DNA from: a candidate division KSB1 bacterium
GTDB lineage: Bacteria > Zhuqueibacterota > JdFR-76 > DREG01
Direction: 5' to 3'
Assembly: GCA_022566355.1 (NCBI GenBank)
Contig: JADFJB010000039.1
Coordinates: 1-35,048 of the forward strand
DNA: 35,048 nt
Part shown: piece by piece, positions 12,050 to 34,084 of the stretch
How the letters are laid out: every line of letters begins with the position of its first letter
Position numbering within the stretch: the stretch's first letter is position 1
The notes under the pieces: generated by a model
Database searches by the model: none
Told to the model about the DNA's origin: nothing
The model's input: the letters and a program-made list of their open reading frames with translations, nothing else
Program-made: the position numbers and the translations under genes

Positions 12050-12562
12050 TCAAATCTCAAACTCCATCGAAGTCAAAACTTTCTTCTGAACGTCATCGAG
12101 CATGTTATTAGCCGTGCGAAATTCAAGGCCGAGAAATTTGCCTTTGTACTCGATCACACAGGAAATCGTGTGGACAGAAGCGATTGCATCATAGTGATCG
12201 TAAACATATCGATAACCCTTTTGTCCACCCATTTCAATTTTTTCAACCGCCTTATTACCCACCCAAAGTCCACGGCTATCACCCTCCTCCTCTGAAACGA
12301 AAACAACACGAATGGCTGTTATTCCATCATATTTGAAAACGACTTCTTTACCATCTTTCGCTTCGCTTTTCGAATAGATATTTGGGTATTTCATTGAATA
12401 ATTAAGTTGCCGGTTTGAATAAGTAGCCCATTCAATATTCGTTGAATCCAGCGCTCTAGGGTAAGGTTGAGTGCAACCGTTGATAAAGAAGGTTGCAGAA
12501 GCGAATATTAAAAGCGGAAAATTTTGATAACTTTTTGATGATTTCCTTAACTGTTTCATCAA
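12050..12562 (-). CDS. small lipoprotein of unknown function
   Basis: 170 residues. The basic N-terminus and hydrophobic stretch end in FFINGC, a lipobox-like site with Cys at about residue 30. The mature part (about 45-170) has an alternating strand pattern (LNYSMKYPNIYS, AIRVVFVSEE, GQKGYRYVYDHYD, FLGLEFRT) and a closing amphipathic helix. This is reminiscent of PsbP/Mog1-like small domains, a resemblance of shape only. It is the last gene of the minus-strand operon, 21 bp after the preceding membrane protein gene. Confidence 0.75.
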   Translation of the reverse strand: MMKQLRKSSKSYQNFPLLIFASATFFINGCTQPYPRALDSTNIEWATYSNRQLNYSMKYPNIYSKSEAKDGKEVVFKYDGITAIRVVFVSEEEGDSRGLWVGNKAVEKIEMGGQKGYRYVYDHYDAIASVHTISCVIEYKGKFLGLEFRTANNMLDDVQKKVLTSMEFEI

Positions 12563-12583: not shown

Positions 12584-12970
12584 TTACCTGGGAATAATCT
12601 CATAATTTTCGACGATGCCATAAAGAAGAATTGCTGCAAGCAGAGCCAAACATATGCAGATGATCAATGGGTTCCGAATTCTGTCTTTATAAAAAATGGG
12701 TTTTACTAAGCTACTTTGATCGGAATGCAGGCTGGGTCGGACTACGGCGAACAGGTTGATCATAAATGCCAAACCCAACCCGCCAAGTATAACAACCGGG
12801 TGTAAAATAAAGCCGATAGTGTTTTGAACCGGATCGATGAGGTTTAGCCCGGATAACGAAAACAAAATTCCTGTTGTAATCAGGTAAAACGCCGGAATGC
12901 ATAGAATAAAACCGATCAAAGCGATCCAGTACGGTTTTTCGTTCGATATTTCTGTTCTGATTTTATTCAA
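12584..12970 (-). CDS. small four-helix membrane protein, unknown function
   Basis: 128 residues with about four hydrophobic segments (about 16-40, 50-76, 100-122). A polar loop in the middle contains the only clearly charged stretch. No family is recognised. It lies between the CrtYd-DgkA fusion gene and the lipoprotein gene with 21-bp gaps on each side, so it is almost certainly co-transcribed. Confidence 0.75.
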   Translation of the reverse strand: MNKIRTEISNEKPYWIALIGFILCIPAFYLITTGILFSLSGLNLIDPVQNTIGFILHPVVILGGLGLAFMINLFAVVRPSLHSDQSSLVKPIFYKDRIRNPLIICICLALLAAILLYGIVENYEIIPR

Positions 12971-12991: not shown

Positions 12992-13699
12992 TTAATGAGT
13001 TAACAATGCAATCACTCTTGATAGGAAAATCACGATGCCAATTACAGCAGCTGCTATCGATGAAACCAACACAGCCGCGGCAGAGGCATCTTTGATTGTG
13101 CCAATTTCTTTATCCGGCTGTTCATCCGTAAGCCTGGATGCCAATCGCTCCACAACGCTGTTGACGATCTCAAACGCAAGTACGGAACCAATCGCCGTAA
13201 CGATGAACAGCCATTCTGTGGAAGTGACGCGGAACAGTACTCCCTCAAGCAGGACGAATACGGCAACAGCAACATGGATGGTGGAGTTTCTTTCCAATGG
13301 TATGATGCTTAATCCTTTGAATGCCTGTTTAAAACTGATGAACAAAGCCTTCATTTCCCGCGAGACAATGTCGATTCCCTGGTCTTCATAATGTGCGGAT
13401 ATGGAGATAAACGATGAAAACAGTAGTCCCGTAAATATCCACCAAATTGTGTCATCCAGAAAAACAAAGCCAAGGAGCTTTATGTTCGTGATTTTTTCCG
13501 GTGAGTAACTCCAGGCTCCATATTTTAATGCGATGGGCCAAATCAGACAGCCATAAAGGGTGAGTATAACAGTTGATATAATGATGGTTTTTACATTTTT
13601 CCGCAGGATCAAAAAGAATTCTTTCCTGAGCCACATCAGGATCAATGGAGGAATACAAAATAGCAGGGTATAACCGATATAACTCATTTGCTCAAACAC
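12992..13699 (-). CDS. lycopene cyclase-like (CrtYd) domain fused to a DgkA-like kinase
   Basis: 235 residues. Residues 1-100 have three hydrophobic helices and a motif pattern like carotenoid cyclase subunits of the CrtYc/CrtYd type (GAWSYSPEKITNIKLLGFVF then LDDTIWW). The usual PLEE signature is FLDD here. Residues about 115-235 match the diacylglycerol/undecaprenol kinase (DgkA) family: a membrane-entering amphipathic helix, then the conserved FEIVNSVVERLASR (E177, N180, E184) and IGTIKDASAAAVLVSS (K203, D204). Three membrane helices follow the family layout. CrtY-type cyclases close the ends of lycopene, and DgkA-type kinases phosphorylate diacylglycerol or undecaprenol. The joined enzyme is unusual. 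Its start overlaps the CrtYc-like gene's end by 8 nt, suggesting coupled translation. Confidence 0.8.
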   Translation of the reverse strand: MFEQMSYIGYTLLFCIPPLILMWLRKEFFLILRKNVKTIIISTVILTLYGCLIWPIALKYGAWSYSPEKITNIKLLGFVFLDDTIWWIFTGLLFSSFISISAHYEDQGIDIVSREMKALFISFKQAFKGLSIIPLERNSTIHVAVAVFVLLEGVLFRVTSTEWLFIVTAIGSVLAFEIVNSVVERLASRLTDEQPDKEIGTIKDASAAAVLVSSIAAAVIGIVIFLSRVIALLTH

Positions 13700-14003
13700 G
13701 ATTAAACCGCCTCCTCACCAACACGACCACAAATGCAATGAATAATGTACCGAAGATATAGAAACCGATGAATTCTTCAATGGGTATACCGTCTAGCCAA
13801 ATACCAATAGTCCTTGAAGAGTCATATCTCCACACCCCGGTATTCACAGAAAGCCAATCCCAAATGAACCCAAAAGTATATACAAAAACCAAACACCAGA
13901 GTACCGTTCTTTTGTATTTGATGATTTCTTTGCCGGTAATCCAGCCAAGAATCAACACCGGGAAGACAAAAAATATCGATAAATAAATTAAATATACCGG
14001 CAT
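13692..14003 (-). CDS. lycopene cyclase-like (CrtYc) domain protein
   Basis: 103 residues with three hydrophobic helices. The diagnostic segment GVWRYDSSRTIGIWLDGIPI is followed by EEF (about 57-79), and the P-I-E-E of this family's active-site motif is intact. Heterodimeric cyclases are built from two such small subunits, here with the next gene supplying the other. No phytoene synthase or desaturase is in the window, so a non-carotenoid role is possible. Confidence 0.78.
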   Translation of the reverse strand: MPVYLIYLSIFFVFPVLILGWITGKEIIKYKRTVLWCLVFVYTFGFIWDWLSVNTGVWRYDSSRTIGIWLDGIPIEEFIGFYIFGTLFIAFVVVLVRRRFNRV

Positions 14004-14030: not shown

Positions 14031-14411
14031 TTAAGACTGGGCTGGTTTTAAACCCGATAATGGGAAACTGATATTCTCATTTGAGTTTTGAACGGCTTCG
14101 GCCGCTTTTTTCAGGACGTTTTCCAGGGTTTTCAAATATTCGATGAATCTTTCCCGGCCCTTATCGGTGATGGAAACTTTGGTATGAGGCTTGTTGTCCA
14201 CAAACGACTTTTGCATTTTGATGATGCGAGCTTCGTTCAAGGTTCTTAAGTGGCTGCTGATATTGCCAAAGGTCAAATTGCATTCATCCTTTAACTGGTT
14301 AAACGAGAGACTGCCATCTGAAGCGCACAAGGCTGAAATGATCGCCAGACGGCTGGGCTCGTGAAAAATTCTTTCTAACCCGCTGTAGATGTTTTTTTCA
14401 ATTTTGGTCAT
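14031..14411 (-). CDS. winged-helix transcriptional regulator (HTH_34/ArsR-like)
   Basis: 126 residues. Residues about 10-95 form a winged helix: FHEPSRLAIISALC, then the recognition region FNQLKDECNLTFGNISSHLRTLNEA, and a wing with KMQKSFVDNKPHTKVSITDKG. This matches single-domain regulators of the HTH_34 family. A helical tail likely mediates dimerization. No metal-binding cysteines or histidines stand out. It sits second in the minus-strand operon, 27 bp before the CrtYc-like gene, and may control the operon itself. Confidence 0.88.
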   Translation of the reverse strand: MTKIEKNIYSGLERIFHEPSRLAIISALCASDGSLSFNQLKDECNLTFGNISSHLRTLNEARIIKMQKSFVDNKPHTKVSITDKGRERFIEYLKTLENVLKKAAEAVQNSNENISFPLSGLKPAQS

Positions 14412-14451: not shown

Positions 14452-15051
14452 TCAATCATCGAAATGAAGAATAATTCCTCCCAGCCATTCACCGATAAAA
14501 AATACGATTCCCATAGGCCAGGGATTTAGAAAAGACACATCTGAAAACAACAAATAAACCGTCCCGCAAAAAATATAGAACAATCCAACGATCCAAATCA
14601 GTTTGGGAAGCGCCGTTCGCGAAGTAAGACAGGCCAGTCCGAATAAACACATCCAAATCCCAAACAGTAATTGATGCTGGTTTTGTGAGATAAAAGCCAG
14701 GGTCAGGATTCCACCTACCAACAGCGGCGGGAAGACGTCGACAATCGGGCGCAATTTGCGAAAATCCCGTTGAACTTTTGAATCGAATAGAAACCAGTTG
14801 AGCAAAGCGCCATAGTTAATCAATAAACCGATGAAGAATACACACCCCCAGCCGTAGAGGTGAGCAGTGTTGGTTTTAGGAAAGCCGACAGTTGACATAA
14901 TCAGCGCAGCTAATATCGCTGTCGTTCCAGCAAGCGCTCTTGCCCTGCCGGAATATCCTTTGAACCTCTGCTTCTCAAGTATTTTTTGCTGCAGCTCCCG
15001 AACTTGACTTAATGCATCCTGTATATGGATGGTAAACATTGCTGACTCCAA
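14452..15051 (-). CDS. six-helix membrane protein of unknown function
   Basis: 199 residues. A soluble N-terminal stretch with a coiled-coil tendency (SQVRELQQKILEKQRF, about 15-30) is followed by five or six hydrophobic helices. Membrane proteins of this shape are often encoded next to HTH_34-type regulators, here 40 bp downstream. It may act in sensing or transport with that regulator, but no function can be assigned. First gene of the operon. The ATG at 15051 is chosen as the start; a second in-frame ATG lies 12 bases downstream. Confidence 0.72.
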   Translation of the reverse strand: MESAMFTIHIQDALSQVRELQQKILEKQRFKGYSGRARALAGTTAILAALIMSTVGFPKTNTAHLYGWGCVFFIGLLINYGALLNWFLFDSKVQRDFRKLRPIVDVFPPLLVGGILTLAFISQNQHQLLFGIWMCLFGLACLTSRTALPKLIWIVGLFYIFCGTVYLLFSDVSFLNPWPMGIVFFIGEWLGGIILHFDD

Positions 15052-20815: not shown

Positions 20816-21628
20816 ATGAAATATTCTCCGGGTATGTTGGGTTTAATACGACTTTTGGGGATAATCTCTATGAACCTTTTAATAGTTAATCCTGGATTTA
20901 CTCAACCAGATTTAGAATCGACTCATATCGGCATGGATGAAAAGTTAGGTGAATTTATCCCGCTCGAATTAGCCTTTTTTGACGAGAATGGAGATTCTGT
21001 TCGCCTGGGTGATTTTATAGATAAACCGACTATCCTTGCATTTGTTTATTACGATTGCCCGGGAATTTGCACTCCCTTGTTAAATGGACTGGTTGACGTA
21101 TTGCAAAAATATGACGGTTTGCCCGGGAAAGATTATTCAATTGTCACGATTAGTATTAATGAACTCGACAATCCGGCAGGCGCTACTCTGAAAAAGGAAA
21201 ATTATTTGGCTTCATTTAAAACGGAATTTCCGGAAAATGAATGGCATTTCCTAACCGGTGATACCGCATCCATTGCTGCGATTACAAATGCTGTCGGGTT
21301 TAGGTATGAACGCAAGGGGATTGATTTTATCCATCCCGGGTTATTGACAATTCTTGCCGCCGACGGAAAAATAATACGCTATTTATTCGGCATCACTTTT
21401 AATCAGTTTGATTTAAAGATGGCCTTAATTGAAGCGATCGAGGGGAGGCCTGGTCCGACCATTGCAAAAATATTACAACTTTGCTTCAGCTATGATCCTG
21501 ATGGCAGAAAGTATGCTTTTAATTTTTTAAGAGTTACCGGCACCGTTGTTTTGTTTTTTGTCTTGATCTTTGTCGGTTATCTTGTTGTTAGCTCCAAATT
21601 ACGCAAAGCACAGATAGGGGTTAAATAA
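20816..21628 (+). CDS. sco: SCO1/SenC copper chaperone for cytochrome oxidase
   Basis: 270 residues. A signal/anchor segment at the N-terminus is followed by a thioredoxin-like fold with the copper-binding C81-P-G-I-C85 motif (YYDCPGICTPLLN) and His173 in DFIHPGL, the three Cu ligands of SCO proteins. A further transmembrane helix lies at the C-terminus (about 238-260). It helps assemble the CuA site of cytochrome oxidase subunit II, encoded four genes downstream. The stop codon abuts the start of ctaD with no gap, so the two are translationally linked. Confidence 0.95.
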   Translation: MKYSPGMLGLIRLLGIISMNLLIVNPGFTQPDLESTHIGMDEKLGEFIPLELAFFDENGDSVRLGDFIDKPTILAFVYYDCPGICTPLLNGLVDVLQKYDGLPGKDYSIVTISINELDNPAGATLKKENYLASFKTEFPENEWHFLTGDTASIAAITNAVGFRYERKGIDFIHPGLLTILAADGKIIRYLFGITFNQFDLKMALIEAIEGRPGPTIAKILQLCFSYDPDGRKYAFNFLRVTGTVVLFFVLIFVGYLVVSSKLRKAQIGVK

Positions 21629-23272
21629 ATGGAAGCAGAAGTATTGGTTGAAGAAAACAAACAAGGGAATTCCCCTTCCGCAATACCAAGCTATTTGGAG
21701 CATAAAGGAAGATTCAGGGGAATTTGGTCCTGGCTTCTTACAACCGACCATAAACGTATCTCCATTCTCTATCTTGTATCCATTCTGACATTTTTTGCCG
21801 TTGGATCTATTTTTGGTTTTTTTATGCGGCTGGAGCAGATGACTACCGGGCCAACCATCATGGAACCCCAGACCTACAATGCTTTTTTCACACTGCATGG
21901 CGTAATGATGATATTCTTGTTTATCATTCCGGGAATCCCTGCGGCTTTTGGTAATTTTATTCTTCCCATTCACATCGGCGCTGAAGATGTGGCATTCCCG
22001 CGATTAAACTTAATGTCATGGTATTTGTATATTTCCGGGGCAATATTAGCGCTTACTTCTCTCTTTGTGGGTGGTTTAATAGATACCGGCTGGACGTTCT
22101 ATGTGCCATATAGTTTACGCACCGGCACGAACGTATCATTGGCATTATTTGGGGTTTTCCTCCTGGGATTTTCTTCCATACTAACAGGTTTAAATTTTAT
22201 TACCACGATTCACCGGCTCCGTGCGCCCGAAATGGGTTGGTTTAATATGCCCTTATTTGTCTGGTCATTATATGCTACCGGTTGGATTCAAGTTATAGCA
22301 ACACCAATCATTGGAATTACGGGATTATTGGTCATTGCTGAGAGACTGTTTGGGATTGGTATATTTGATCCGAGCAAGGGTGGCGATCCGGTTTTATTCC
22401 AGCACCTGTTTTGGATCTACTCGCATCCGGCAGTTTATATCATGATCTTACCGGCAATGGGTGTGATTTCTGAAGTCATTCCTGCATTTGCCAGGCGAAC
22501 GATTTTCGGATATAAATTTATTGCTTATTCAAGTATCGCAATAGCCTCGGTTGGTTCTTTGGTCTGGGGCCACCATCTTTATGTTTCCGGTCAGAGTTAC
22601 ACTGCCAGTGTGGTGTTTTCTCTACTCACCTTTTTAGTTGCGATCCCCAGTGCCATCAAGATATTTAACTGGGTAAGTACGTTGTACAAAGGCTCTATTG
22701 ATCTTTCAACGCCAATGCTGTACGCCCTGGCTTTTATTTTCTTATTTATGATCGGCGGATTAACCGGTTTAATGCTTGGGACGCTTTCTGTTGATGTTCA
22801 TCTGCATGACACCTATTTTGTAGTTGCTCACTTTCATTATGTTATGTTTGGTGGAACCGGTTTTGGACTTTTTGCCGCGCTTCATTATTGGTTTCCAAAA
22901 ATGACAGGTAGAATGTATAATGAACGTATCGCAAAAATTGCATGGGCTCTGTTGGTCATTGGTTTTAACGGTCTTTATTTTACCATGCTGGTTTTGGGTT
23001 ACCAGGGTATGCCGCGACGTTACTATGACCATCTTCCGGAATTTCATGAGGGACACATCATAGCAACCGTAGGTTCCTGGATTCTGGTTTCAGGAATTTT
23101 TCTAATGCTTGGCAATATCCTATACGCTTTGTTTAAAGGCCGCAAAGCCGGGCAAAACCCCTGGAAAGCAACTACATTGGAATGGCAGGTTCCAACACCG
23201 CCGCCATTGTTGAATTTTGTGACAAAACCCAATATACCCGAAGATCCCTATGATCATAAATTTAGGTTTTAA
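21629..23272 (+). CDS. ctaD: caa3-type cytochrome c oxidase subunit I (A2 type)
   Basis: 547 residues with 12 or more transmembrane helices. Heme a ligands His90 and His403, heme a3 ligand His401 (VVAHFHYVM), CuB ligands His266, His315 and His316, the crosslinked Tyr270 (HPAVY) and the K-channel Lys344 are all present. The motif is YSHPAVY with Ala where A1-type enzymes have Glu, preceded by Y264-S265. This is the hallmark of A2-type heme-copper oxygen reductases such as the Rhodothermus caa3 enzyme, which use the YS pair in the D-channel. It reduces O2 to water and pumps protons. Confidence 0.97.
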   Translation: MEAEVLVEENKQGNSPSAIPSYLEHKGRFRGIWSWLLTTDHKRISILYLVSILTFFAVGSIFGFFMRLEQMTTGPTIMEPQTYNAFFTLHGVMMIFLFIIPGIPAAFGNFILPIHIGAEDVAFPRLNLMSWYLYISGAILALTSLFVGGLIDTGWTFYVPYSLRTGTNVSLALFGVFLLGFSSILTGLNFITTIHRLRAPEMGWFNMPLFVWSLYATGWIQVIATPIIGITGLLVIAERLFGIGIFDPSKGGDPVLFQHLFWIYSHPAVYIMILPAMGVISEVIPAFARRTIFGYKFIAYSSIAIASVGSLVWGHHLYVSGQSYTASVVFSLLTFLVAIPSAIKIFNWVSTLYKGSIDLSTPMLYALAFIFLFMIGGLTGLMLGTLSVDVHLHDTYFVVAHFHYVMFGGTGFGLFAALHYWFPKMTGRMYNERIAKIAWALLVIGFNGLYFTMLVLGYQGMPRRYYDHLPEFHEGHIIATVGSWILVSGIFLMLGNILYALFKGRKAGQNPWKATTLEWQVPTPPPLLNFVTKPNIPEDPYDHKFRF

Positions 23273-23274
23273 AA

Positions 23275-24069
23275 GTGATGACAAGTACAGCAGCAACAGC
23301 AAAAGTCGAATTTCATGAGCATCACGATTATACCGGCGGAAAGATCGGCATGTGGTTGTTTTTGTTTACCGAATTGCTATTATTCGGCGGTATGTTTATT
23401 GTTTATGCAGTTTATCGATATCAGTATCCCCAGGAATTTCACCAGGCTGCCATGGAATTAAATACCCTGCTAGGCACAATTAATACAATTGTATTGCTTA
23501 CCAGTAGTTTGTCAATGGCATTATCCATTGCAACTTTACAAAGAGGTAAAAGAAAAGTTTCTTTGGCATTCCTTTCCTTTACGATTTTTTGCGCCCTGGT
23601 ATTTCTGGTCAATAAGTATTTTGAATGGAGCGATAAAATCCACCATGGCATATATCCAAATTCCGAAGAGTTATTGAATTTTGAAAAAGGTGAAGTTCTC
23701 TTTTTTGGATTGTACTACATGATGACCGGCCTTCATGGTATCCATGTTTTGGCAGGAGCTATTATCCTTTCGATAATGGCTTATTTTATCGCCAAACGGC
23801 CGAGCGAAAAATATTATTTCTATCCTGAAAAACTAAAAGATTTACAGGGTTCAAAACTTGTGATCATAAATCAAAAGGGTGAAGAAATATGGAACGGCGC
23901 AACCATTAATGAATCCGTCGATCAGTTTTCAGTGAATATTAAAAGACCGTTAACTGACAAATATATTGACAAAAACAATATCGGAAAGTTAGAGAACAGC
24001 GGATTATATTGGCATCTTGTAGATGTCATTTGGATATTTCTGTTTCCATTATTTTATTTGATTACTTGA
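23275..24069 (+). CDS. ctaE: cytochrome c oxidase subunit III, with extra loop
   Basis: 264 residues from GTG 23275, or 263 from ATG 23278. Seven hydrophobic helices and the conserved FFGLYYMMTGLHGIHVLAG (about 143-161) identify subunit III. The usual bacterial protein is about 190-210 residues. Here a polar stretch of roughly 65 residues (about 176-240: EKYYFYPEKLKDL...ITDKYID...) is inserted before the final helix, which normally follows closely. It begins 2 bp after ctaD. Confidence 0.93.
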   Translation: MMTSTAATAKVEFHEHHDYTGGKIGMWLFLFTELLLFGGMFIVYAVYRYQYPQEFHQAAMELNTLLGTINTIVLLTSSLSMALSIATLQRGKRKVSLAFLSFTIFCALVFLVNKYFEWSDKIHHGIYPNSEELLNFEKGEVLFFGLYYMMTGLHGIHVLAGAIILSIMAYFIAKRPSEKYYFYPEKLKDLQGSKLVIINQKGEEIWNGATINESVDQFSVNIKRPLTDKYIDKNNIGKLENSGLYWHLVDVIWIFLFPLFYLIT

Positions 24070-24078
24070 GGTTTCGGA

Positions 24079-24384
24079 ATGTCAAATCATCACGAGCAAG
24101 AGCAGCATTTAATTAGTTATAGCACCTATTTTTTGATTTGGCTTGGATTATTGGCTTTAACGGGTGTTACAGTAGCAGTGGCAGGATTTAAATTCAAAAA
24201 TTTAAGTGTTGTTGTTGCTTTAGTAATCGCTTCGATTAAATCGATATTGGTTTTTAATTATTTTATGCATCTTAAGTATGAGGAAGCTTTTTTTCGGGTT
24301 ATGTTATTTGTCACACTCACCTTTTTCGTTATATTTATTACGTTAACTTTTTTCGATTATTCTTTCAGAGGTATAATTTTTTAG
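24079..24384 (+). CDS. ctaF: cytochrome c oxidase subunit IV
   Basis: 101 residues with three transmembrane helices (about 13-34, 43-60, 73-95). The central VVVALVIASIKSILVFNYFMHLKYE pattern (split here across helix 2 and its loop) is characteristic of prokaryotic COX4-family small subunits. It is 9 bp after ctaE, with gagg before the ATG. Confidence 0.88.
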   Translation: MSNHHEQEQHLISYSTYFLIWLGLLALTGVTVAVAGFKFKNLSVVVALVIASIKSILVFNYFMHLKYEEAFFRVMLFVTLTFFVIFITLTFFDYSFRGIIF

Positions 24385-24406
24385 TTTATCAGTTTAAGGG
24401 TTTAGG

Positions 24407-25354
24407 ATGTTGACAACCGCAGGAAATTTTGCAGAGAATGTAGATAATGTATTTATTTTAATTCTAGTTATATCACTGGTCTTATTGGTAGGAATAACCG
24501 GGTTGATGATTTATTTTGTCATCCGGTACAATAGCAAACGGAATCCAAACCCGACAGATATTCATGGACATGCTTTGCTGGAAATCTTATGGACTGTAAT
24601 TCCGACATTGCTGGTTTTGGGAATGTTCTATTTTGGCTGGATCAATTTTAGGGACATGCGGGATGTTCCCGAAGATGCTTTGGAAATTAACGTTACTGCA
24701 CAAATGTGGGCCTGGGCTTATCATTACGAGAATGGTGCAAGTGCGGACACTTTATATGTCCCGGTCAATCAAAATATTAAATTAAATCTGCATTCGAGAG
24801 ATGTGCTCCATAGTTATTATATACCCGCATTTCGTCTTAAGTTTGATGTCGTACCGGGTACAGATCAATATCTTTGGTTTAAACCGGATAGAGTCGGACG
24901 GTTTAATGTTTTGTGTGCGGAATATTGTGGATTGCAGCATTCTTATATGTTTTCTTCCATTGTAGTTTTGTCGGAAGAGGAGTATAATACCTGGTATAAC
25001 AAAAATGCTCAAACTGCAGATATGACTGATGAAGATTCAAAAGAAGATACTATCGGAAATGCTGCACGAGGTGCTCAATTGGTCAGGATTAACGGATGTC
25101 TTGCATGTCATTCCACGGACGGTACTAAGTTGGTAAGCAATAGCTTTAAAGGATTATACGGCAAGAAGACAATAGTTATAACCGATGGACAGGAAAGAGA
25201 ACTTACTGCCTCGGATGATTATATTCGCAGGTCCATCCGCGACCCGGCTTCGGATTTGGCAAAAGGATTTTCTAATTTGATGCCTCCCCTGGGAGATAAA
25301 CTTTCCGATGAGGATATTAATAATATCATTGCCTATCTAAAGGAAATTAAATAA
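24407..25354 (+). CDS. ctaC: cytochrome c oxidase subunit II with fused cytochrome c domain
   Basis: 315 residues. Two transmembrane helices (about 14-40 and 57-80) are followed by the CuA domain with ligands His135, Cys170, Glu172, Cys174, His178 and Met181 (CAEYCGLQHSYM). A C-terminal cytochrome c domain binds heme via C231-x-x-C234-H235 with distal Met292 (LMPPL). This fusion defines a caa3-type oxidase: electrons from complex III enter the heme c and pass to CuA. No cleavable signal peptide is evident. Confidence 0.96.
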   Translation: MLTTAGNFAENVDNVFILILVISLVLLVGITGLMIYFVIRYNSKRNPNPTDIHGHALLEILWTVIPTLLVLGMFYFGWINFRDMRDVPEDALEINVTAQMWAWAYHYENGASADTLYVPVNQNIKLNLHSRDVLHSYYIPAFRLKFDVVPGTDQYLWFKPDRVGRFNVLCAEYCGLQHSYMFSSIVVLSEEEYNTWYNKNAQTADMTDEDSKEDTIGNAARGAQLVRINGCLACHSTDGTKLVSNSFKGLYGKKTIVITDGQERELTASDDYIRRSIRDPASDLAKGFSNLMPPLGDKLSDEDINNIIAYLKEIK

Positions 25355-25370
25355 ACTTTATAATTTTCTA

Positions 25371-26234
25371 ATGAATCAAAAAAAAATAAGAATTCTACTC
25401 GAACTCACCAAATTTAAGATTTCACTATTTTCATCCCTCACAGTCTCAGTTGGTTATATCTTGGCTACGGGATCGCTTACCCTGGAAACTTTTATTCCGA
25501 CTTTCGGAATATTATTCTTAGCTTGTGGCTCATCTGCTTTGAACCACTACCAGGAGCGGAATACAGATAAATTGATGAAGAGGACCAAAGGCCGGCCTAT
25601 CCCATCTGGGAGAATAGCAGCAGGTAAGGTGCTGACCGTCTCAATAATATTATGCTTTTTAGGTTTACTGATATTGTTCCTGGGAACGAATCAAACAGCT
25701 TTTTTACTTGGGCTATTTGCCTTGATGTGGTACAATGGCGTTTATACCAATCTAAAAAAAGTAACAGCTTTTGCAGTAGTTCCGGGCTCTTTGATTGGAT
25801 CCATTCCACCGGCAATCGGTTGGAGTGCAGGGGGAGAAAGCCTGGCAGATCCGCAAATCTGGCCGGTGCTATTTTTCTTTTTTATTTGGCAGATCCCCCA
25901 TTTTTGGTTGTTAATCTTACTTTATGGCGAACAATACGAAAATGCCGGGTTGCCTTCCATGACAAAATTGTTTTCAGTTCGCCAAATAAAACGACTGATA
26001 TTCATATGGATTATCGCCACTGCAGTAACTTGTACCCTGTTTCCGTTTTTTGGTCTTGTGAAATTTTCCATCATAAATATTGCTCTTTATGGTCTTGCAA
26101 TTTGGTTAATTTTTAAGTCATCCAGAATGTTTGGTGTGAATGCCGATAATTATTCCCCCGGTTCCGGATTTCGCGTGATAAATATTTATGCATTGTTGGT
26201 AATTATGTTAATTTCTATTGACAATTTAATTTAA
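25371..26234 (+). CDS. ctaB: protoheme IX farnesyltransferase (heme O synthase)
   Basis: 287 residues with about nine hydrophobic helices. The first aspartate-rich motif is NHYQERNTDKLMKRTKGRP (about 58-76), with Glu in place of the first Asp. A later YTNLKKVTAFAVVPGSLIG region and the IPHFWLL helix are also typical of the UbiA/COX10 family. The enzyme attaches a farnesyl group to heme B, making heme O on the way to the heme A of the oxidase. No heme A synthase (ctaA) gene is present in the window. Confidence 0.93.
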   Translation: MNQKKIRILLELTKFKISLFSSLTVSVGYILATGSLTLETFIPTFGILFLACGSSALNHYQERNTDKLMKRTKGRPIPSGRIAAGKVLTVSIILCFLGLLILFLGTNQTAFLLGLFALMWYNGVYTNLKKVTAFAVVPGSLIGSIPPAIGWSAGGESLADPQIWPVLFFFFIWQIPHFWLLILLYGEQYENAGLPSMTKLFSVRQIKRLIFIWIIATAVTCTLFPFFGLVKFSIINIALYGLAIWLIFKSSRMFGVNADNYSPGSGFRVINIYALLVIMLISIDNLI

Positions 26235-26313
26235 TAGCCTTATCATTCTTCCTTCTTAAATTTGGAAAGTAATTTGAATAATATTATTGGAGCTGCTTTA
26301 GGGAGTGCCTTAT

Positions 26314-27600
26314 ATGGATTTTCTTGATAATATGGCTCTTTATCCATCCTCAGAGCATATTGTCTTGCTCAAAGTAATTATCGGATTAATGTTACTTGTT
26401 CATATGCCCTATATCAGCATATTACTGGGTGGATCTCTGTTTTCATTATTTTTTAGTATGTTAGACAAACGCGAGCCGAATGCCACACATTTAAGATTTT
26501 CAAAAGATCTGATTCACTTAATTACCTCAAAAAAAAGCGCACCCATTTTATTAGGAGTATTGCCCTTACTCAGTCTTATTCTATCGTTTGCCCAATTGTA
26601 TCAAGGATCAGACCTTAAAATTACACAATATTTATTAATTGTATCCTTGTTTTCAATCAGTGGTTTCATTTTACTTTACCTGTTTAAATCATCGTTCGAA
26701 AAGCGGGAACAACAGTTCTCAACCCATGTTTTATTGGGACTGGGTGTTTTCGTGGCTTTTATGGTTGGATATTTAATATTTTCCGCCACGACTTCTTTGA
26801 TGTTTTTCCCGGAAAAATGGAATTTCGTTTATACTTCCTTCCCGATTTTTGTTTATGAGAATGAGTTGCCCCGCGCAGCCCTATTTTTATTTTTTACTTT
26901 CGCTTTTACAGCTGCCGCAATTCTGTATTTTTTCCTGAGTTGGCCCGGAAGAAAAGAGATTGATGCTACATATGGCGATTTCATTCGAAAATTTGGCGCT
27001 GTGGTTGGATTGATCTTTGTCCTGTTAATTCCGATTGTTGTTGTGTGGAATTTAATTACTTTCCCGGATGTTGCGGCTTCCGAATCGGTTTTTGCCGTCT
27101 GGGGAGTAACTTTATTATTGTTATTAATCACGGCAATCCTTTTCAATTCAATAATAAAATCGCAAAATAGAAAACTGGTTACTTCCACATTTATTTTGTT
27201 TTTGGTAACCTTTGGAGTTATGTCTGTTAACGATCGTATTGCAGCAGGGAATGCCCGCTATGAACAAGAAAAATTGTTGGCTGCAAAAGCTGATGAAATT
27301 CATCAGGAAATCCTGGCTGCACGTGCAGCGAAATCCGCAGCTGCAACACAAATAAATGGAGAGGAAATCTTCACTAATATTTGTACTGCCTGCCATCAAT
27401 TTGATCAGCGGGTTGTAGGTCCTCCATACATGAGTGTTTTGGCAAAATATGAAAACGATAAAGATGCATTGGTGCAGTTTATCATGAATCCGTCCAAAAT
27501 AGATACTGACTATCCGCCAATGCCAAACCAAAATTTAAGAAAGCCAGAAGCATCCGCGGTTGCGGATTACTTATTGCAAGAATATGTCAATCGGAAATGA
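26314..27600 (+). CDS. polytopic membrane protein with C-terminal cytochrome c domain
   Basis: About 428 residues from ATG 26314, which has aggga(g) (26300-26305) about 8 bp upstream; a GTG at 26305 is the other in-frame start. About eight hydrophobic helices fill residues 15-330. A charged coiled-coil linker (about 315-345) then leads to a single cytochrome c domain with C-T-A-C-H (about 356-360) and a PPMPNQNL distal Met region. The N-terminal part resembles no family I can name with confidence. It lies between ctaB and actA in the same direction. Its likely job is carrying electrons between complex III and the caa3 oxidase, perhaps replacing the missing monoheme ActE, but this is inference. 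Confidence 0.8.
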   Translation: MDFLDNMALYPSSEHIVLLKVIIGLMLLVHMPYISILLGGSLFSLFFSMLDKREPNATHLRFSKDLIHLITSKKSAPILLGVLPLLSLILSFAQLYQGSDLKITQYLLIVSLFSISGFILLYLFKSSFEKREQQFSTHVLLGLGVFVAFMVGYLIFSATTSLMFFPEKWNFVYTSFPIFVYENELPRAALFLFFTFAFTAAAILYFFLSWPGRKEIDATYGDFIRKFGAVVGLIFVLLIPIVVVWNLITFPDVAASESVFAVWGVTLLLLLITAILFNSIIKSQNRKLVTSTFILFLVTFGVMSVNDRIAAGNARYEQEKLLAAKADEIHQEILAARAAKSAAATQINGEEIFTNICTACHQFDQRVVGPPYMSVLAKYENDKDALVQFIMNPSKIDTDYPPMPNQNLRKPEASAVADYLLQEYVNRK

Positions 27601-27648
27601 TAGAACCTGTTTGTTTGATGTATGCATAAGTGCCAATAGGAGATTATA

Positions 27649-28161
27649 GTGAAGAGTCGAATTATTAACACCGCTATTGTATTATATTTTGGCTTGATCT
27701 CTCTTATGGTGTTGGGTTTTGCAATTTATTGGCATGATTTTAAGAAAGCGCCGGTTCAACCCATCAACTTTAGCCATCAAATTCACGCAGGTCAGTTAGG
27801 TTTGCAATGCATATTTTGCCACACGACGGTTGAAAAATCGATTCGTGCTTCTGTTCCAACCATGTCAAAATGTATGGAATGTCACAAGGCAGTAGCTAAA
27901 GACAAAGAAGAAATAATAAAACTCACACGATATTGGGACAATAAAGAACTCATACCCTGGGAAAAAGTTTATTCTGTTCCGGAGCATGTTTATTTTTCCC
28001 ATAAACGGCACATTAAAGCAGGTCTTGATTGCTCGAAATGTCATGGACAATTAGCAGCCATGCCAAGAGTTCGTCAAGTCACTTCGATAAGAATGGGATT
28101 TTGTATCGATTGCCATAAGGCGAAAGGTGTATCCCGCGATTGCTATATCTGCCATAAATAA
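27649..28161 (+). CDS. actA: alternative complex III pentaheme cytochrome c, ActA
   Basis: 170 residues. An N-terminal transmembrane segment (about 9-28) precedes five CxxCH heme sites (C54-H58, C75-H79, C128-H132, C152-H156, C165-H169). The length, heme count and gene order match the ActA subunit of alternative complex III, which passes electrons from the FeS subunit toward downstream cytochromes. It has a GTG start at 27649 with aggag upstream. Confidence 0.95.
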   Translation: MKSRIINTAIVLYFGLISLMVLGFAIYWHDFKKAPVQPINFSHQIHAGQLGLQCIFCHTTVEKSIRASVPTMSKCMECHKAVAKDKEEIIKLTRYWDNKELIPWEKVYSVPEHVYFSHKRHIKAGLDCSKCHGQLAAMPRVRQVTSIRMGFCIDCHKAKGVSRDCYICHK

Positions 28162-28182
28162 GGATGTGATTAGGAGAAATTA

Positions 28183-31026
28183 ATGCAAAGAAGGGATTTC
28201 ATCAAAACTATAGGCGTTGCTTCCACTGCAACTATTGCGACGTCGTGCGGTCTGAATGATAATTCAAATAAATTGATCCCTTACCTGGTACCCCCTGATG
28301 AAGAAATTTTACCGGGAATGGCAATTTATAGAAGTAGTAGCTGTACGGAATGTTCGGCTGGATGTGGTATTTCAGCGAAAATTAGAGAGAAATTAGTCAA
28401 TAACAAACACATTCGGGTTCCGATAAAATTAGAAGGCATCGATAACCATCCTGTAAACGATGGCGCATTATGCATCCGTGGGCAAGCCTCAATTATGAGG
28501 TTATACCATCCGAAACGGATTCAAACACCATTAATCAAAGATGAAAATGGAAACTTTGTTGAATCGACATGGGAAGATGCATTTGCCATAATCTCGAGAG
28601 AAATAGACTCTACAGAATTAAGCAACAAAAAAAATGTTTATCTTTCCAGGCGAAGAACCGGATCTCTTACGGAGCTGGTTGACAGCTTTTGCCGGAGAAT
28701 GGGAATTGAGAAGCTTCCTGAATATGAATTCTATTCACATGCTAATATAAGAGAAGCCAATAAGATTCTCTTTAACCTGGATGAAATTCCATACTATCGT
28801 ATTGAAGATTCTGATTTTCTAATATGCATTGGCGCAGATCTTTTCGAGACCTTCGTTTCCCCGGTTTCGTTTGCAAAACAATTCTCTCGTGCAAAAAAAA
28901 CAGGGAATTTTGAATTTTATCAAGTTGAACCACATGTAAGCACAACAGGTTATCGGGCAAACCACCGGCTTACTGTCAAACCTGAAAGTGAAGTTTATTT
29001 ACTGGCTTACTTACTAAGAAACCTCGGAAATAATAATAAAAACAGAATTGCAACTTCGATTTTAAATGCGCTTCCAAATTTATCCCTTGAAGAAACAGCC
29101 GAAAAGACCGGATTGACCGCCGATCAAATCAGTACTCTTACTCAAAAATTAGGCGATGCAAAAAATCCCCTAATAATTGCCGGTGGTGTTTCGACCAGCA
29201 GTAAGAACGGCCTGCATGTAGCTCTCATCGCGGGACTTATCCAATGGGCCTCCGGAATGATTGGCGCAAGAGTTGATTTTTCTCGGAGTGAGAATTACTC
29301 CGGAGTTGGAACACTGAAAGATATAGAGAATCTTACTTCCAGAATGAGTAAAGATGAAATTGGTGTACTCTTTCTTTCTGATGTAGACCCGATTCAGTCA
29401 TTACCTGCCGGTATCGCTTTTAAGGAGAATCTAAAGAAAGCGAAATTTAAAGTAGCTTTTGCTCTTTTGCGCAATGACACAGTCAATGAATGCGATGTTG
29501 TGCTTCCGTTATCACATTCCTTGGAATCCTGGGGAGATACGGAAACACGAAAAGGAATTACGAATGTGATTCAGCCGGCTATCGAACCGTTGTATAACAC
29601 GCTTTCAGAAGGTGATATTTTACTGCAATTGATGCTGCGAAAAATTGGGGTTTCGGAAGAACCGACTTTCCGGGAATATGTTTTAAAGAAATGGCGCCGG
29701 AAATTTAACCAGGCTGAAATTAAAGAGCTATTAAGTATTGGTTTCATCGAAGAAAACGTAAATACAAAACGAGTTCGACTAAACACAAATGCAGCTATTG
29801 CATCTATTAGGCGATCCGATTTATCTGAACCTGTTACCGGATCCGTGTTATTTGTGACGCCTTCTCTCAGAACTTATGATGGCCGCAGTCGTGATCTTCC
29901 GTTAATTGAAGAAATACCAGACCCTCTCAGTGCAGTTTCTTATGGACGATGGATTTCCTATCCATATAAAGCTGGCAAATCGATAAATCTAACGGATAGA
30001 GATGAAATCCAAATCAGTACTAGTGATTGGCAGTCTAAGCTACCGATTAAGCTCCAACCAGGGCTTAGCGACAATATTTTGATGGTTCAGCGAGACCTCG
30101 TAGGAGATGTACCTTTACAAATTACCGAAACGGGGGATTATGTTTGTTATGTTGAGAATATAACCGTTGAGGAAACAGGAGCTACCATTGCGTTCCCAAT
30201 TCTGTCTGGTCAATCGTTAGATCACGAGATTGCTGCAAAACGCTACAATTTGCATGGTGGAAAAAAAGAACATAGCCCGGATGAGTATAAAGAAGAGAAT
30301 AAGGGGGACGGTGAAGCGCCCTCAATGTATGAAGCTCATGTCCATAAAAATTATCGCTGGGCCATGGCTATTGATCTGGACCTTTGTACAGGGTGCAACG
30401 CTTGTGTTGCTGCGTGCTATATTGAAAATAATATTCCTATTGTTGGCGCTGTTGAACATCTAAAGGGTCGCGAAATGTCCTGGATAAGAATTGAAACAAA
30501 ATATAGCCAGGATGATGATGCAACCTTTCAACCGATGTTATGCCAGCATTGTGGCAATGCCCCCTGTGAGCCTGTTTGTCCTGTTTATGCCACTTATCAT
30601 AATGAGGATGGCCTGAACGCCCAGGTTTACAATCGTTGTGTAGGAACAAGATATTGTGCCAATAACTGTACATACAAGGTTCGAAGATTCAATTGGTTCG
30701 ATCCGGTCTGGGAAGCACCCCTCGATCTGATGTTAAATCCTGATATTTTCAATCGGACCAAGGGAATCATGGAAAAATGTACGTTTTGTGTACAAAGAAT
30801 CAGGACGGCTAAAGATCTTGCCAAAGATGATGACCGAAAAGTCGCCGATGGTGAAGTTCGTACTGCTTGTGAACAAACATGTCCGGCGAACGCCATTGTT
30901 TTTGGAAATCTTCTCGATTCTGAAAGCCAAGTCGCAAAACTCGCTGCAGACGGTCGAGGTTTTGTAGAGCTGGAGGATTTAAATACTAAACCAGCTGTGA
31001 CTTATTTAAGAAAATCTGAATCTTAA
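28183..31026 (+). CDS. actB: alternative complex III FeS/molybdopterin-like subunit, ActB
   Basis: 947 residues. The twin-arginine leader (RRDFIKT at 3-9) ends at a Cys (SCG, about 22), as in TAT-exported lipoproteins. Residues about 45-700 form a molybdopterin oxidoreductase-like domain, starting with a CTECSAGCG cluster motif (C54, C57, C61) that corresponds to the family's FeS site. The family usually carries no molybdenum. The C-terminal part (about 730-915) is a ferredoxin-like module with CTGCNACVAAC, CQHCGNAPCEPVC, CVGTRYCANNC, CTFC and CEQTCP motifs for several [FeS] clusters. It receives electrons from quinol oxidised at ActC and hands them to ActA. Confidence 0.96.
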   Translation: MQRRDFIKTIGVASTATIATSCGLNDNSNKLIPYLVPPDEEILPGMAIYRSSSCTECSAGCGISAKIREKLVNNKHIRVPIKLEGIDNHPVNDGALCIRGQASIMRLYHPKRIQTPLIKDENGNFVESTWEDAFAIISREIDSTELSNKKNVYLSRRRTGSLTELVDSFCRRMGIEKLPEYEFYSHANIREANKILFNLDEIPYYRIEDSDFLICIGADLFETFVSPVSFAKQFSRAKKTGNFEFYQVEPHVSTTGYRANHRLTVKPESEVYLLAYLLRNLGNNNKNRIATSILNALPNLSLEETAEKTGLTADQISTLTQKLGDAKNPLIIAGGVSTSSKNGLHVALIAGLIQWASGMIGARVDFSRSENYSGVGTLKDIENLTSRMSKDEIGVLFLSDVDPIQSLPAGIAFKENLKKAKFKVAFALLRNDTVNECDVVLPLSHSLESWGDTETRKGITNVIQPAIEPLYNTLSEGDILLQLMLRKIGVSEEPTFREYVLKKWRRKFNQAEIKELLSIGFIEENVNTKRVRLNTNAAIASIRRSDLSEPVTGSVLFVTPSLRTYDGRSRDLPLIEEIPDPLSAVSYGRWISYPYKAGKSINLTDRDEIQISTSDWQSKLPIKLQPGLSDNILMVQRDLVGDVPLQITETGDYVCYVENITVEETGATIAFPILSGQSLDHEIAAKRYNLHGGKKEHSPDEYKEENKGDGEAPSMYEAHVHKNYRWAMAIDLDLCTGCNACVAACYIENNIPIVGAVEHLKGREMSWIRIETKYSQDDDATFQPMLCQHCGNAPCEPVCPVYATYHNEDGLNAQVYNRCVGTRYCANNCTYKVRRFNWFDPVWEAPLDLMLNPDIFNRTKGIMEKCTFCVQRIRTAKDLAKDDDRKVADGEVRTACEQTCPANAIVFGNLLDSESQVAKLAADGRGFVELEDLNTKPAVTYLRKSES

Positions 31027-31048
31027 CTTAATATGGAATGATTGCTCG

Positions 31049-32380
31049 ATGAGTAGTGAAACATTGACATATAAAAGGATTAACGAATCCGTAATTGGCA
31101 TGCTTGACCCGCCGAAATTACCTTACTATGGTTTGATTGCAACATTTGTCACTATGGTGTTGATCGGAGCGAGTTGTTGGGCTTATCAAATCTACATGGG
31201 AATGGGAGTGGCCAGTATTAACAACCCGGTTGGCTGGGGAGTCTACATCACTGATTTTGTTTTCTGGGTTGGTATTGCGCATTCGGGAACTCTCATTTCA
31301 GCCATTTTGTTTCTGTTTCGAGCCAGGTGGAGAACCTCGATTTATCGTAGCGCTGAAGCAATGACAGTTTTTGCGGTGCTTACTGCAGGATTATTTCCGC
31401 TTATTCACCTGGGTCGAGTTTGGTTCGCTTATTGGTTATTTCCGTATCCCAATCAACGATTTTTGTGGCCAAATTTTAAATCCCCTTTGATTTGGGATGT
31501 ATTAGCAATCAGCACGTATTTAGCAGTTAGCGCATTGTTTTTCTTTCTCGGATTGCTGCCCGATATAGCGGCTGTAAGAGATTCAGCAAAAGGTGTTCGA
31601 AAGAAAATCTATGGTATTTTGTCGCTTGGCTGGCAAGGAAGCCATAGACTGTGGCATCACTACGGCAGCGCCTACCTTTTCTTCGCTGGGCTTGCGACTC
31701 CATTGGTAATCTCAGTACATAGTGTTGTATCCTGGGATTTTGCAATGTCTATTGTCCCGGGCTGGCACAGTACTATTTTTGCTCCTTATTTTGTTGCCGG
31801 TGCAATCCATTCAGGGCTTGCTATGGTCATTATGCTTCTAATTCCAATTAGAAAGGTGTTTAAAACTGAGCACTTGATTACCATGTTAGACCTGGAAACC
31901 ATGGCTAAAATGATTATATTAACCGGATCGATTGTTGGTTATTCTTACGGAGTGGAATTCTTTATAGCCTGGTACAGCGGCAATGAATACGAATATGAAA
32001 TATTTCGGTGGCGGGCAACCGGTCATTACGCACCTGAATATTGGACAATGGTCATTTGTAATGCGATAATTCCGTTACTCTTCTTTTTTAAGAAAATTCG
32101 CACCAATTTAATAACTCTTTTGATTATAAGTATTTGCGTCAACATTGGTATGTGGTTTGAGCGCTATGTCATCATTGTAACTTCTTTGGCACATGAGTAT
32201 ATTCCATATGCATGGGGCAATTATTCGCCATCACTTATAGAATGGGGAATAACGTTAGGCTCTTTCGGGTGGTTTTTTATGTTTTTCTTTTCATTCATTA
32301 AATTATTGCCATCTGTTTCTATTATGGAAATGAAAGAGTTGATACCCCCTCCTATGAGAAATCGAGGTAACAATCAATGA
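31049..32380 (+). CDS. actC: alternative complex III NrfD-like quinol-binding subunit, ActC
   Basis: 443 residues with about ten transmembrane helices of the NrfD/PsrC family. The conserved residues proposed to bind quinol in this subunit are visible: the His in FPLIHLGRVW (about 114-123) and the Asp in LIWDVLAIS (about 149-157). Its stop overlaps the actD start by 4 nt (ATGA), a sign of tight coupling. Confidence 0.95.
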   Translation: MSSETLTYKRINESVIGMLDPPKLPYYGLIATFVTMVLIGASCWAYQIYMGMGVASINNPVGWGVYITDFVFWVGIAHSGTLISAILFLFRARWRTSIYRSAEAMTVFAVLTAGLFPLIHLGRVWFAYWLFPYPNQRFLWPNFKSPLIWDVLAISTYLAVSALFFFLGLLPDIAAVRDSAKGVRKKIYGILSLGWQGSHRLWHHYGSAYLFFAGLATPLVISVHSVVSWDFAMSIVPGWHSTIFAPYFVAGAIHSGLAMVIMLLIPIRKVFKTEHLITMLDLETMAKMIILTGSIVGYSYGVEFFIAWYSGNEYEYEIFRWRATGHYAPEYWTMVICNAIIPLLFFFKKIRTNLITLLIISICVNIGMWFERYVIIVTSLAHEYIPYAWGNYSPSLIEWGITLGSFGWFFMFFFSFIKLLPSVSIMEMKELIPPPMRNRGNNQ

Positions 32381-32880
32381 AAAACGTTTCTCTTGTAGGA
32401 GTTTATTCCTACCTAGATGATGTACTTGATGGCATTAAAAAAGTTAAAGAAAAGCTGCCGGAAAGAATGGTGGTTTATTCGCCGATACCTAACCATCATA
32501 TTGATGAAGCGATGGAAAAGAAAATCAGCAAAGTGAGATATTTTACCCTGTTCGGCGCTATAAGTGGTTGTGTTGGCGGGTTTGCCCTTGCCATATGGAG
32601 CTCATTAAAATATGGCTTAATAACAGGCGGCAAACAACCCGTGGAGATCACGCCGTTCGTTGTAGTAGGTTTTGAAATGGCAATTCTGTTAGGCGCTATA
32701 TGTACTTTAATCGGTTTAGCATTTATGAACCATATAAACAGTTATAGAATTAAGAATACTTACGATGAAAGATTTTCGAATGATAAATACGGAATTGCCT
32801 TAACAGTTCTGGAATCTGAAAAGGAAGACTATGAAAGAATTTTGAATGCAACTGGTGCGGAGGAAGTAAATGTTCGATAA
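32377..32880 (+). CDS. actD: alternative complex III subunit ActD (DUF3341)
   Basis: 167 residues. A soluble N-terminal part (about 1-50, with the family's YSPIPNHHIDEAM) precedes two transmembrane helices (about 57-78 and 92-115) and a soluble tail. This matches DUF3341/ActD, which contributes to complex III assembly. The last 11 nt overlap the start of actF. Confidence 0.93.
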   Translation: MKNVSLVGVYSYLDDVLDGIKKVKEKLPERMVVYSPIPNHHIDEAMEKKISKVRYFTLFGAISGCVGGFALAIWSSLKYGLITGGKQPVEITPFVVVGFEMAILLGAICTLIGLAFMNHINSYRIKNTYDERFSNDKYGIALTVLESEKEDYERILNATGAEEVNVR

Positions 32881-34084
32881 AGAAAATCTATATGCCGATG
32901 CAACCGCACATCAAGCAAAAGGAGTTTCATCAAAATGGCGTATGATCTTTGCTTTGCTGGCAGTTTTGGGTGGGGTTAGTTTTATAATGGGCATAATGAG
33001 TGAAAGTCCTGAACGTGCCTGGCAGGTTTACCTTGTTAACTTTCTCTACTTTACAGGCTTGGCGCAAGGAATGGTTGTTTTCGCCGTGATACTTCAAATG
33101 GCAAATGCCAGATGGGGCAGGGTTTTAAAACGCCTGGCAGAGCTTGGCGCTTATTTCTTACCGTTATCTTTGGTATTCCTTATTATTTTATATTTTGGTA
33201 GATTGCATCTGTTTTCCTGGATTGAACACCCGGTACCCATTCCCCAAAAACAATCCTGGCTTCAATTTCCCTTTTTATTTACCAGAGATTTTATTGGGTT
33301 TCTCATTTTAGCAGTTCTTAGTTTCGCTTTCTTGAAATTGTCAACCAGTGCCGATGGGAAAGATGGTGTTGAAATTGGTAAATTAGCTTTTGCAAAATCA
33401 ACCAAAATTGCACCAGCCATTGTTATTAGTTACGCTTTGATTTATTCACTTATTGCGTTTGATTTAATTATGTCATTAGATCCGCATTGGTATAGCACTC
33501 TTTTTGGCGGTTACTATTTTATAACAACATTTTTAAGCGCTCTGTGCTGTTTAATGGTTATATCTGTATTGGCTAAAAAATATTTAAATATGGACCAATA
33601 CATTACTTCTAATCAAACTTTTGATCTGGGTAAGTTGATGTTTGGATTTACTGTAATGTCTGGTTATTTATTTTGGTCTCAATTCCTGCCAATTTGGTAT
33701 GGAAACCTTCCGGAAGAAACCGTATTTGTCATTTTACGTATTCGAACGAAGCCATGGAGCTACTTAGCTAAATTTGTTTTCGCTTTCGGGTTTATAATAC
33801 CTTTTGTTCTATTACTAAGTCAAAGCCTCAAGAGAAAACCCAATTTAATTATTACGGTAGCTTTTATTACCTTAATTGGGTTATGGGGTGAAAGATTCTT
33901 ACTAATTGTACCTTCAATTTGGCATGAACAGTCTATACCAATCGGTATTTCAGAAATTCTAATTAGCTTTGGATTTTTAGGAATATTTGGACTGGTGTAT
34001 TTGTTTGCAATCCAAAGGCATGCAATATTGCCAATTAACGACCCATTTATGCATGAACACCTGGAAGGATATCCGAATCATTAG
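32870..34084 (+). CDS. actF: alternative complex III membrane subunit ActF
   Basis: 404 residues with about ten transmembrane helices and NrfD-family features such as FTRDFIGFLIL and LGELG-like loops. It is the second NrfD-type subunit, thought to form the second half of the proton path with ActC. Normally a monoheme cytochrome gene (actE) lies between actD and actF; here the two overlap by 11 nt, so that gene is absent. Confidence 0.93.
   Translation: MFDKENLYADATAHQAKGVSSKWRMIFALLAVLGGVSFIMGIMSESPERAWQVYLVNFLYFTGLAQGMVVFAVILQMANARWGRVLKRLAELGAYFLPLSLVFLIILYFGRLHLFSWIEHPVPIPQKQSWLQFPFLFTRDFIGFLILAVLSFAFLKLSTSADGKDGVEIGKLAFAKSTKIAPAIVISYALIYSLIAFDLIMSLDPHWYSTLFGGYYFITTFLSALCCLMVISVLAKKYLNMDQYITSNQTFDLGKLMFGFTVMSGYLFWSQFLPIWYGNLPEETVFVILRIRTKPWSYLAKFVFAFGFIIPFVLLLSQSLKRKPNLIITVAFITLIGLWGERFLLIVPSIWHEQSIPIGISEILISFGFLGIFGLVYLFAIQRHAILPINDPFMHEHLEGYPNH

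Follow-up and report, generated by a model that had tools for sequence, protein, structure and literature searches.

Carotenoid cyclases of the CrtYc/CrtYd type and their one-chain CrtYcd counterparts (TIGR03462, PF18916) consist of two homologous three-helix halves encoded in overlapping or adjacent genes, with a PxEE motif in the first half and an acidic pair in the second. CrtYcd-type proteins receive a lycopene-cyclase annotation on sight. Domains of this type also occur fused to other enzymes of lipid metabolism, as in fungal CrtYB and CarRA and in protist CrtIBY, where the fusion partners are carotenoid enzymes (PMC3153474, PMC10016063). The DgkA kinases (PF01219) have a surface helix and three membrane helices and act on membrane lipids; the Escherichia coli enzyme has diacylglycerol kinase activity (PMC4703834), and that of Bacillus subtilis has undecaprenol kinase activity (PMC5723303). 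A gene pair that shares the cyclase features above was found in the window (the whole 35,048-nucleotide stretch of DNA analysed, from a candidate division KSB1 bacterium), but here the CrtY half is joined to a lipid kinase that has no part in carotenogenesis: unlike the known cyclases, the pair carries a C-terminal DgkA half, joined to the CrtYd half in one protein (Table 1). Both domain families are already known; their fusion is new, and a literature search yielded no description of a CrtYd-DgkA type fusion.

Both reading frames were open throughout and overlapped by 8 bp, with CrtYc first on the minus strand. In profile searches, the CrtYc-like protein matched TIGR03462 (1.2e-13, 51.4 bits vs. 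a cut-off of 39.4) and PF18916 (3e-7, 31.4 bits vs. a cut-off of 27); residues 5-85 of the CrtYd half matched TIGR03462 at 2.4e-5 with 24.8 bits, below the cut-off of 39.4; and residues 125-225 of the fusion matched PF01219 (DAGK_prokar) at 1.2e-22 with 80.1 bits vs. a cut-off of 22.3, spanning profile positions 2-102 of 102. The CrtYc and CrtYd profiles matched each other by hhalign (E 1e-6), as expected of CrtYc/CrtYd halves, and CrtYc matched the N-terminal half of canonical CrtYcd (E 3.9e-6); no significant hhalign match was obtained between the CrtYd half and canonical CrtYcd. Judged by these profiles, the CrtYd likeness of the N-terminal half is real but divergent. The matches uphold the sequence-only reading of the locus as a lycopene-cyclase-type pair in which a DgkA-family domain is attached to one of the halves.

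A structure model of the fusion was of low confidence overall (mean pLDDT 67). In this model, the kinase half contained helices at residues 111-132, 137-155, 160-190, and 197-234, and Foldseek matched it to E. coli DgkA chains with a probability of 1.00 and a TM-score of up to 0.84 by target length, at E-values of 0.05 or worse. The membrane helix arrangement of DgkA was recovered in the C-terminal half of the low-confidence model. A canonical CrtYcd of a relative gave no fold match in the PDB, though its model was good (pLDDT 91).

Table 1. Features of the CrtYc/CrtYd-DgkA locus, in window coordinates
Feature	Position	Strand	Basis
103-aa membrane protein, CrtYc-like, with lycopene-cyclase domain of N-half type	13692..14003	(-)	TIGR03462, PF18916, hhalign
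PIEE motif, residues 74-77 of CrtYc	13773..13784	(-)	aligned with PxEE of canonical CrtYcd; PxEE in 4/4 orthologues
CrtYd-DgkA fusion, 235 aa, GTG start	12992..13699	(-)	domain matches; orthologues in G005, G072, G073
CrtYd-like half of fusion, residues 1-115, three predicted membrane helices	13355..13699	(-)	TIGR03462 below cut-off; hhalign; low-confidence model
Asp82-Asp83 of CrtYd half	13451..13456	(-)	alignment to E-D of canonical PxED; Phe/Tyr in place of Pro
Kinase half of DgkA family, residues 116-235 (matched by Pfam over 125-225)	12995..13354	(-)	PF01219; Foldseek
E177-x-x-N180-x-x-x-E184 (E. coli DgkA Glu69/Asn72/Glu76)	13148..13171	(-)	alignment; roles from PMC4703834
Ser188 at E. 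coli Asp80 position	13136..13138	(-)	alignment; Asp80 role from PMC4703834
K203-D204 (E. coli DgkA Lys94/Asp95)	13088..13093	(-)	alignment
Upstream winged-helix regulator (HTH_34); a neighbour only, not dedicated	14031..14411	(-)	PF13601 9.2e-23
199-aa membrane protein travelling with HTH_34; neighbour only	14452..15051	(-)	neighbourhood comparison
128-aa membrane protein downstream of pair	12584..12970	(-)	no family match; no counterpart beside the G005 pair
170-aa PsbP-like lipoprotein	12050..12562	(-)	PsbP 0.0023, below cut-off

Among the 82 genomes searched in the phylum, four from two families carried the full-length fusion: the window genome (G000) and G005 in one, and G072 and G073 in the other. 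The three orthologous fusions were 57-68% identical to the window protein and had the same junction, and CrtYc lay directly upstream of the fusion gene in all four carriers. A missed stop or frameshift between the halves had been named beforehand as one finding that would undo the fusion; the recurrence of one junction in four assemblies, together with low dN/dS where dS was unsaturated, ruled out such an artefact in practice, and an assembly error was rejected on the shared junction. Beyond the phylum, one insensitive genome-contig scan with peptide patterns from the single window protein gave only a stand-alone DgkA of a Nitrospira, and the fusion may thus extend to other phyla; no fusion was found on viral contigs, and plasmids gave DgkA-domain matches only.

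In pairs with unsaturated dS, dN/dS was 0.05-0.20 across all parts (CrtYc, ~0.13; CrtYd half, 0.16-0.20; kinase half, 0.05-0.18), while the other pairs were saturated at synonymous sites. The pair is under purifying selection. The fusion was the only DgkA, and the pair the only lycopene-cyclase-domain protein, in each of the four carrier genomes. As the sole DgkA, the fusion could simply have replaced a stand-alone gene; it would then be a chance fusion, with a diacylglycerol/undecaprenol kinase working just as a stand-alone one does and the CrtY pair as dead weight. This explanation is highly improbable: CrtYc and CrtYd were 58-67% identical between the two families, dN/dS was low where measurable, and the CrtYd half (63-67%) exceeded the kinase half (50-58%) as the best-conserved part and is therefore not vestigial.

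The PIEE, DD, ExxNxxxE, and KDASAA motifs noticed in the first reading were all present, and PxEE, DD, ExxN(x)3E, and KD were kept in 4/4 orthologues. When the acidic motif PxE(E/D) was sought, it was intact in the first half of all four pairs and failed in the second half, which reads (F/Y)x-DD in the four fusions; relative to canonical PxED, the proline is lost and Glu is replaced by Asp. The first reading had noticed neither this missing proline nor the change at the Asp80 position of the kinase described below. This altered motif and a second half below the family cut-off set the pair apart from CrtYc/CrtYd and CrtYcd. The acids that are invariant in canonical CrtYcd (the second E of PxEE and the D of PxED) were nevertheless kept in 4/4 pairs, so that some cyclase-type reaction with a different isoprenoid may persist.

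The acidic motifs were located at the boundary between loop 2 and TM3. In CrtYc, loop 1 held 4-6 K/R compared to 1-2 in loop 2, which suggests that loop 1 is cytosolic and that the acidic-motif side is periplasmic, opposite the cytosolic DgkA site; the loop charges of CrtYd did not discriminate between the sides. Such an arrangement, and the invariant acids, would suit a bifunctional enzyme in which the CrtY pair still carries out a proton-driven cyclisation at the far (omega) terminus of an isoprenoid such as a polyprenol and DgkA phosphorylates the hydroxyl end of that lipid. The lost proline and Glu-to-Asp change of the second motif, the lack of a significant hhalign match between the CrtYd half and canonical CrtYcd, and the uninformative CrtYd charges count against it, and we consider it unlikely; to our knowledge, a bifunctional cyclase-kinase of this kind has no precedent. 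The boldest form of the idea, a two-headed enzyme that alters a non-carotenoid isoprenoid at its hydrocarbon end through the bundle (e.g., omega ring closure of a polyprenol) and phosphorylates the alcohol end through the kinase, seems to us more doubtful still, and its product, if it were true, would be a lipid carrier not yet described.

The kinase half was aligned with stand-alone relatives and with an E. coli DgkA sequence that agreed with the PDB stretch compared. All 4/4 fusions kept the catalytic residues that correspond to Glu28, Glu69, Asn72, Glu76, Lys94, and Asp95 of E. coli; a predicted surface helix and three membrane helices are likewise shared with the DgkA family. The fusion differs from that family in lying behind a CrtYd half, in lacking one residue ahead of the ERN motif that stand-alone relatives have, and in the loss of Asp80: this position was S/A/N/N in the four fusions and D in 16/16 stand-alone relatives and in E. 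coli. In the E. coli enzyme, Asp80 tethers the ATP-binding Lys94 (PMC4703834). Because its equivalent was lost in all fusions, the kinase may have weak or altered activity, or none. The equivalent of E. coli Arg9 was not kept in the fusions and was variable in the stand-alone relatives too. At the Glu28 position, which is metal-binding in E. coli DgkA, most stand-alone DgkA of the phylum (L006-L021) carried Gln, and Glu was retained by the fusions, by family f11, and by the Nitrospira protein.

It was also considered that neither half is catalytic and that the complex is a membrane-lipid sensor or scaffold, its DgkA half being kept for trimerisation and lipid binding. The missing Asp80, the divergent second cyclase motif, and, for what a variable position can say, the missing Arg9 are consistent with this; the invariance of the Glu69, Asn72, Glu76, Lys94, Asp95, and Glu28 equivalents in the fusions, the last at a position mostly occupied by Gln in the stand-alone relatives of the phylum, counts against it, and we regard a sensor or scaffold as improbable.

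No carotenoid genes had been noticed near the pair, and a genome-wide search, as the first reading had called for, strengthened this: crtI over cut-off was found in 0/4 fusion genomes. A canonical one-chain CrtYcd over cut-off was found in 33 genomes of the phylum, 30 of which had crtI over cut-off, and the canonical loci examined closely had crtI genes and a phytoene-synthase-type gene alongside. The difference in crtI absence between fusion and canonical CrtYcd genomes gave a Fisher p of 5e-4, not corrected for relatedness. Homologues of squalene/phytoene synthase (SQS_PSY) were not found in G072 and G073 (91% and 95% complete); G005 was only 77% complete, which makes absences there weaker. 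The window genome had two adjacent SQS_PSY genes on contig C77, one an HpnC over cut-off and the other HpnD-like and just below the HpnD cut-off, with HpnE next door. By these matches, the C77 genes are assigned to squalene synthesis (HpnC/D/E), and they were rejected as CrtB and as part of a carotenoid pathway elsewhere in this genome.

An ordinary CrtYc/CrtYd lycopene cyclase that happens to carry a kinase, and whose carotenoids come from genes at another locus or from uptake, would account for CrtYc scoring over the lycopene-cyclase domain cut-offs and for a CrtO-like/CrtI-like oxidoreductase pair on contig C25 of the window genome. The C25 protein tested, however, fell far below the carotenoid cut-offs (351 vs. 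1000 bits and 134 vs. 238 bits), and the C25 pair was rejected as carotenoid genes. With crtI over cut-off in none of the four carriers, no SQS_PSY in two of them, and HpnC/D/E rather than CrtB in the window genome, this explanation is largely refuted and has very little left to recommend it. A UbiA gene in the window (25371-26234) was rejected as an isoprenoid partner; its best match, below cut-off, was heme o synthase, and it lies in a cytochrome oxidase cluster.

In the absence of a detected carotenoid pathway, the four genomes again depart from those of known CrtYc/CrtYd and CrtYcd cyclases. The carriers appear unable to make carotenoids; lycopene is very unlikely as the substrate, and the pair therefore probably acts on a different membrane lipid. 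That such a pair, joined to a lipid kinase, is conserved where lycopene genes are apparently missing suggests a second role of this fold outside carotenoids. Separately, genome G071 encodes a different orphan protein (L073:18-743, minus strand) whose C-terminal part matches Lycopene_cyc (PF18916, 7.9e-19); its gene lies beside a methyltransferase-like gene, and crtI over cut-off was not found in that genome; the orphan may be a second hint of Lycopene_cyc domain roles outside carotenoid synthesis.

A PAP2-family lipid phosphatase gene lay directly after the pair in G072 and G073, and these two PAP2 proteins were 64% identical to each other. In G056 and in a Nitrospira, a PAP2-like gene also lay directly before the DgkA gene, there a stand-alone one, so that the kinase adjoins PAP2 as in G072/G073 but without CrtY halves. 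The linkage was seen at 2/4 fusion loci, with no adjacent PAP2 in the window. The PAP2 neighbours point to lipid-phosphate metabolism, at few loci.

Our tentative preference, held at somewhat less than even confidence, is for a membrane-lipid kinase with a repurposed cyclase bundle, in which CrtYc and CrtYd-DgkA form one complex; a polyprenol such as undecaprenol would be our first guess for the substrate and diacylglycerol our second. We favour this kinase because the PF01219 match is accompanied by most of the active-site residues, the fusion is the sole DgkA, there is no crtI over cut-off, dN/dS is low, the CrtYd half is well conserved, and PAP2 genes adjoin some of the loci. The loss of Asp80, the PAP2 linkage at just two of the fusion loci, and the low confidence of the fusion model speak against it. 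E. coli DgkA works as a trimer. The DgkA half would form the kinase, and the complex is predicted to contain three copies each of CrtYc and CrtYd-DgkA; next to every DgkA subunit, CrtYc and the CrtYd half would together make up a helical bundle of CrtYcd type. The bundle, repurposed from carotenoid chemistry, would bind or position a non-carotenoid lipid alcohol of the membrane and offer it to the kinase; the DgkA half would then use ATP to phosphorylate this lipid on the cytosolic side, and PAP2, where it follows the pair, would supply the opposing activity. We infer complex formation, the trimer, the substrate, and kinase activity alike. Undecaprenol, proposed in the first reading, is plausible; sequence alone does not choose between polyprenol and diacylglycerol. 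The locus offers a concrete case in which a fused membrane bundle might give a small trimeric lipid kinase a new lipid specificity.

The first reading had suggested looking for the regulator together with the fusion in other genomes; the neighbourhood comparison gave no support to the regulator as part of the system. In the window and in G005, the 199-aa membrane protein gene and the HTH_34 gene precede the pair; in G028 and G029 (L081, L082), which lack the pair, the gene directly after the 199-aa gene and HTH_34 is homologous to the PsbP-like lipoprotein gene that in the window lies on the far side of the pair, and in G073 the pair is present without the 199-aa and HTH_34 genes. A dedicated HTH_34 regulator was thus rejected. 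Since the PsbP-like homologue comes directly after HTH_34 in G028/G029, the window pair, with the 128-aa gene, appears to have been inserted into an older 199-aa/HTH_34/PsbP-like string, whose regulator does not belong to the pair. Elsewhere in the window, positions 20816-34084 hold a cytochrome oxidase cluster (SCO1, COX1, COX3, COX2, and a likely heme o synthase); after it come respiratory genes of molybdopterin/NrfD type that resemble alternative complex III.
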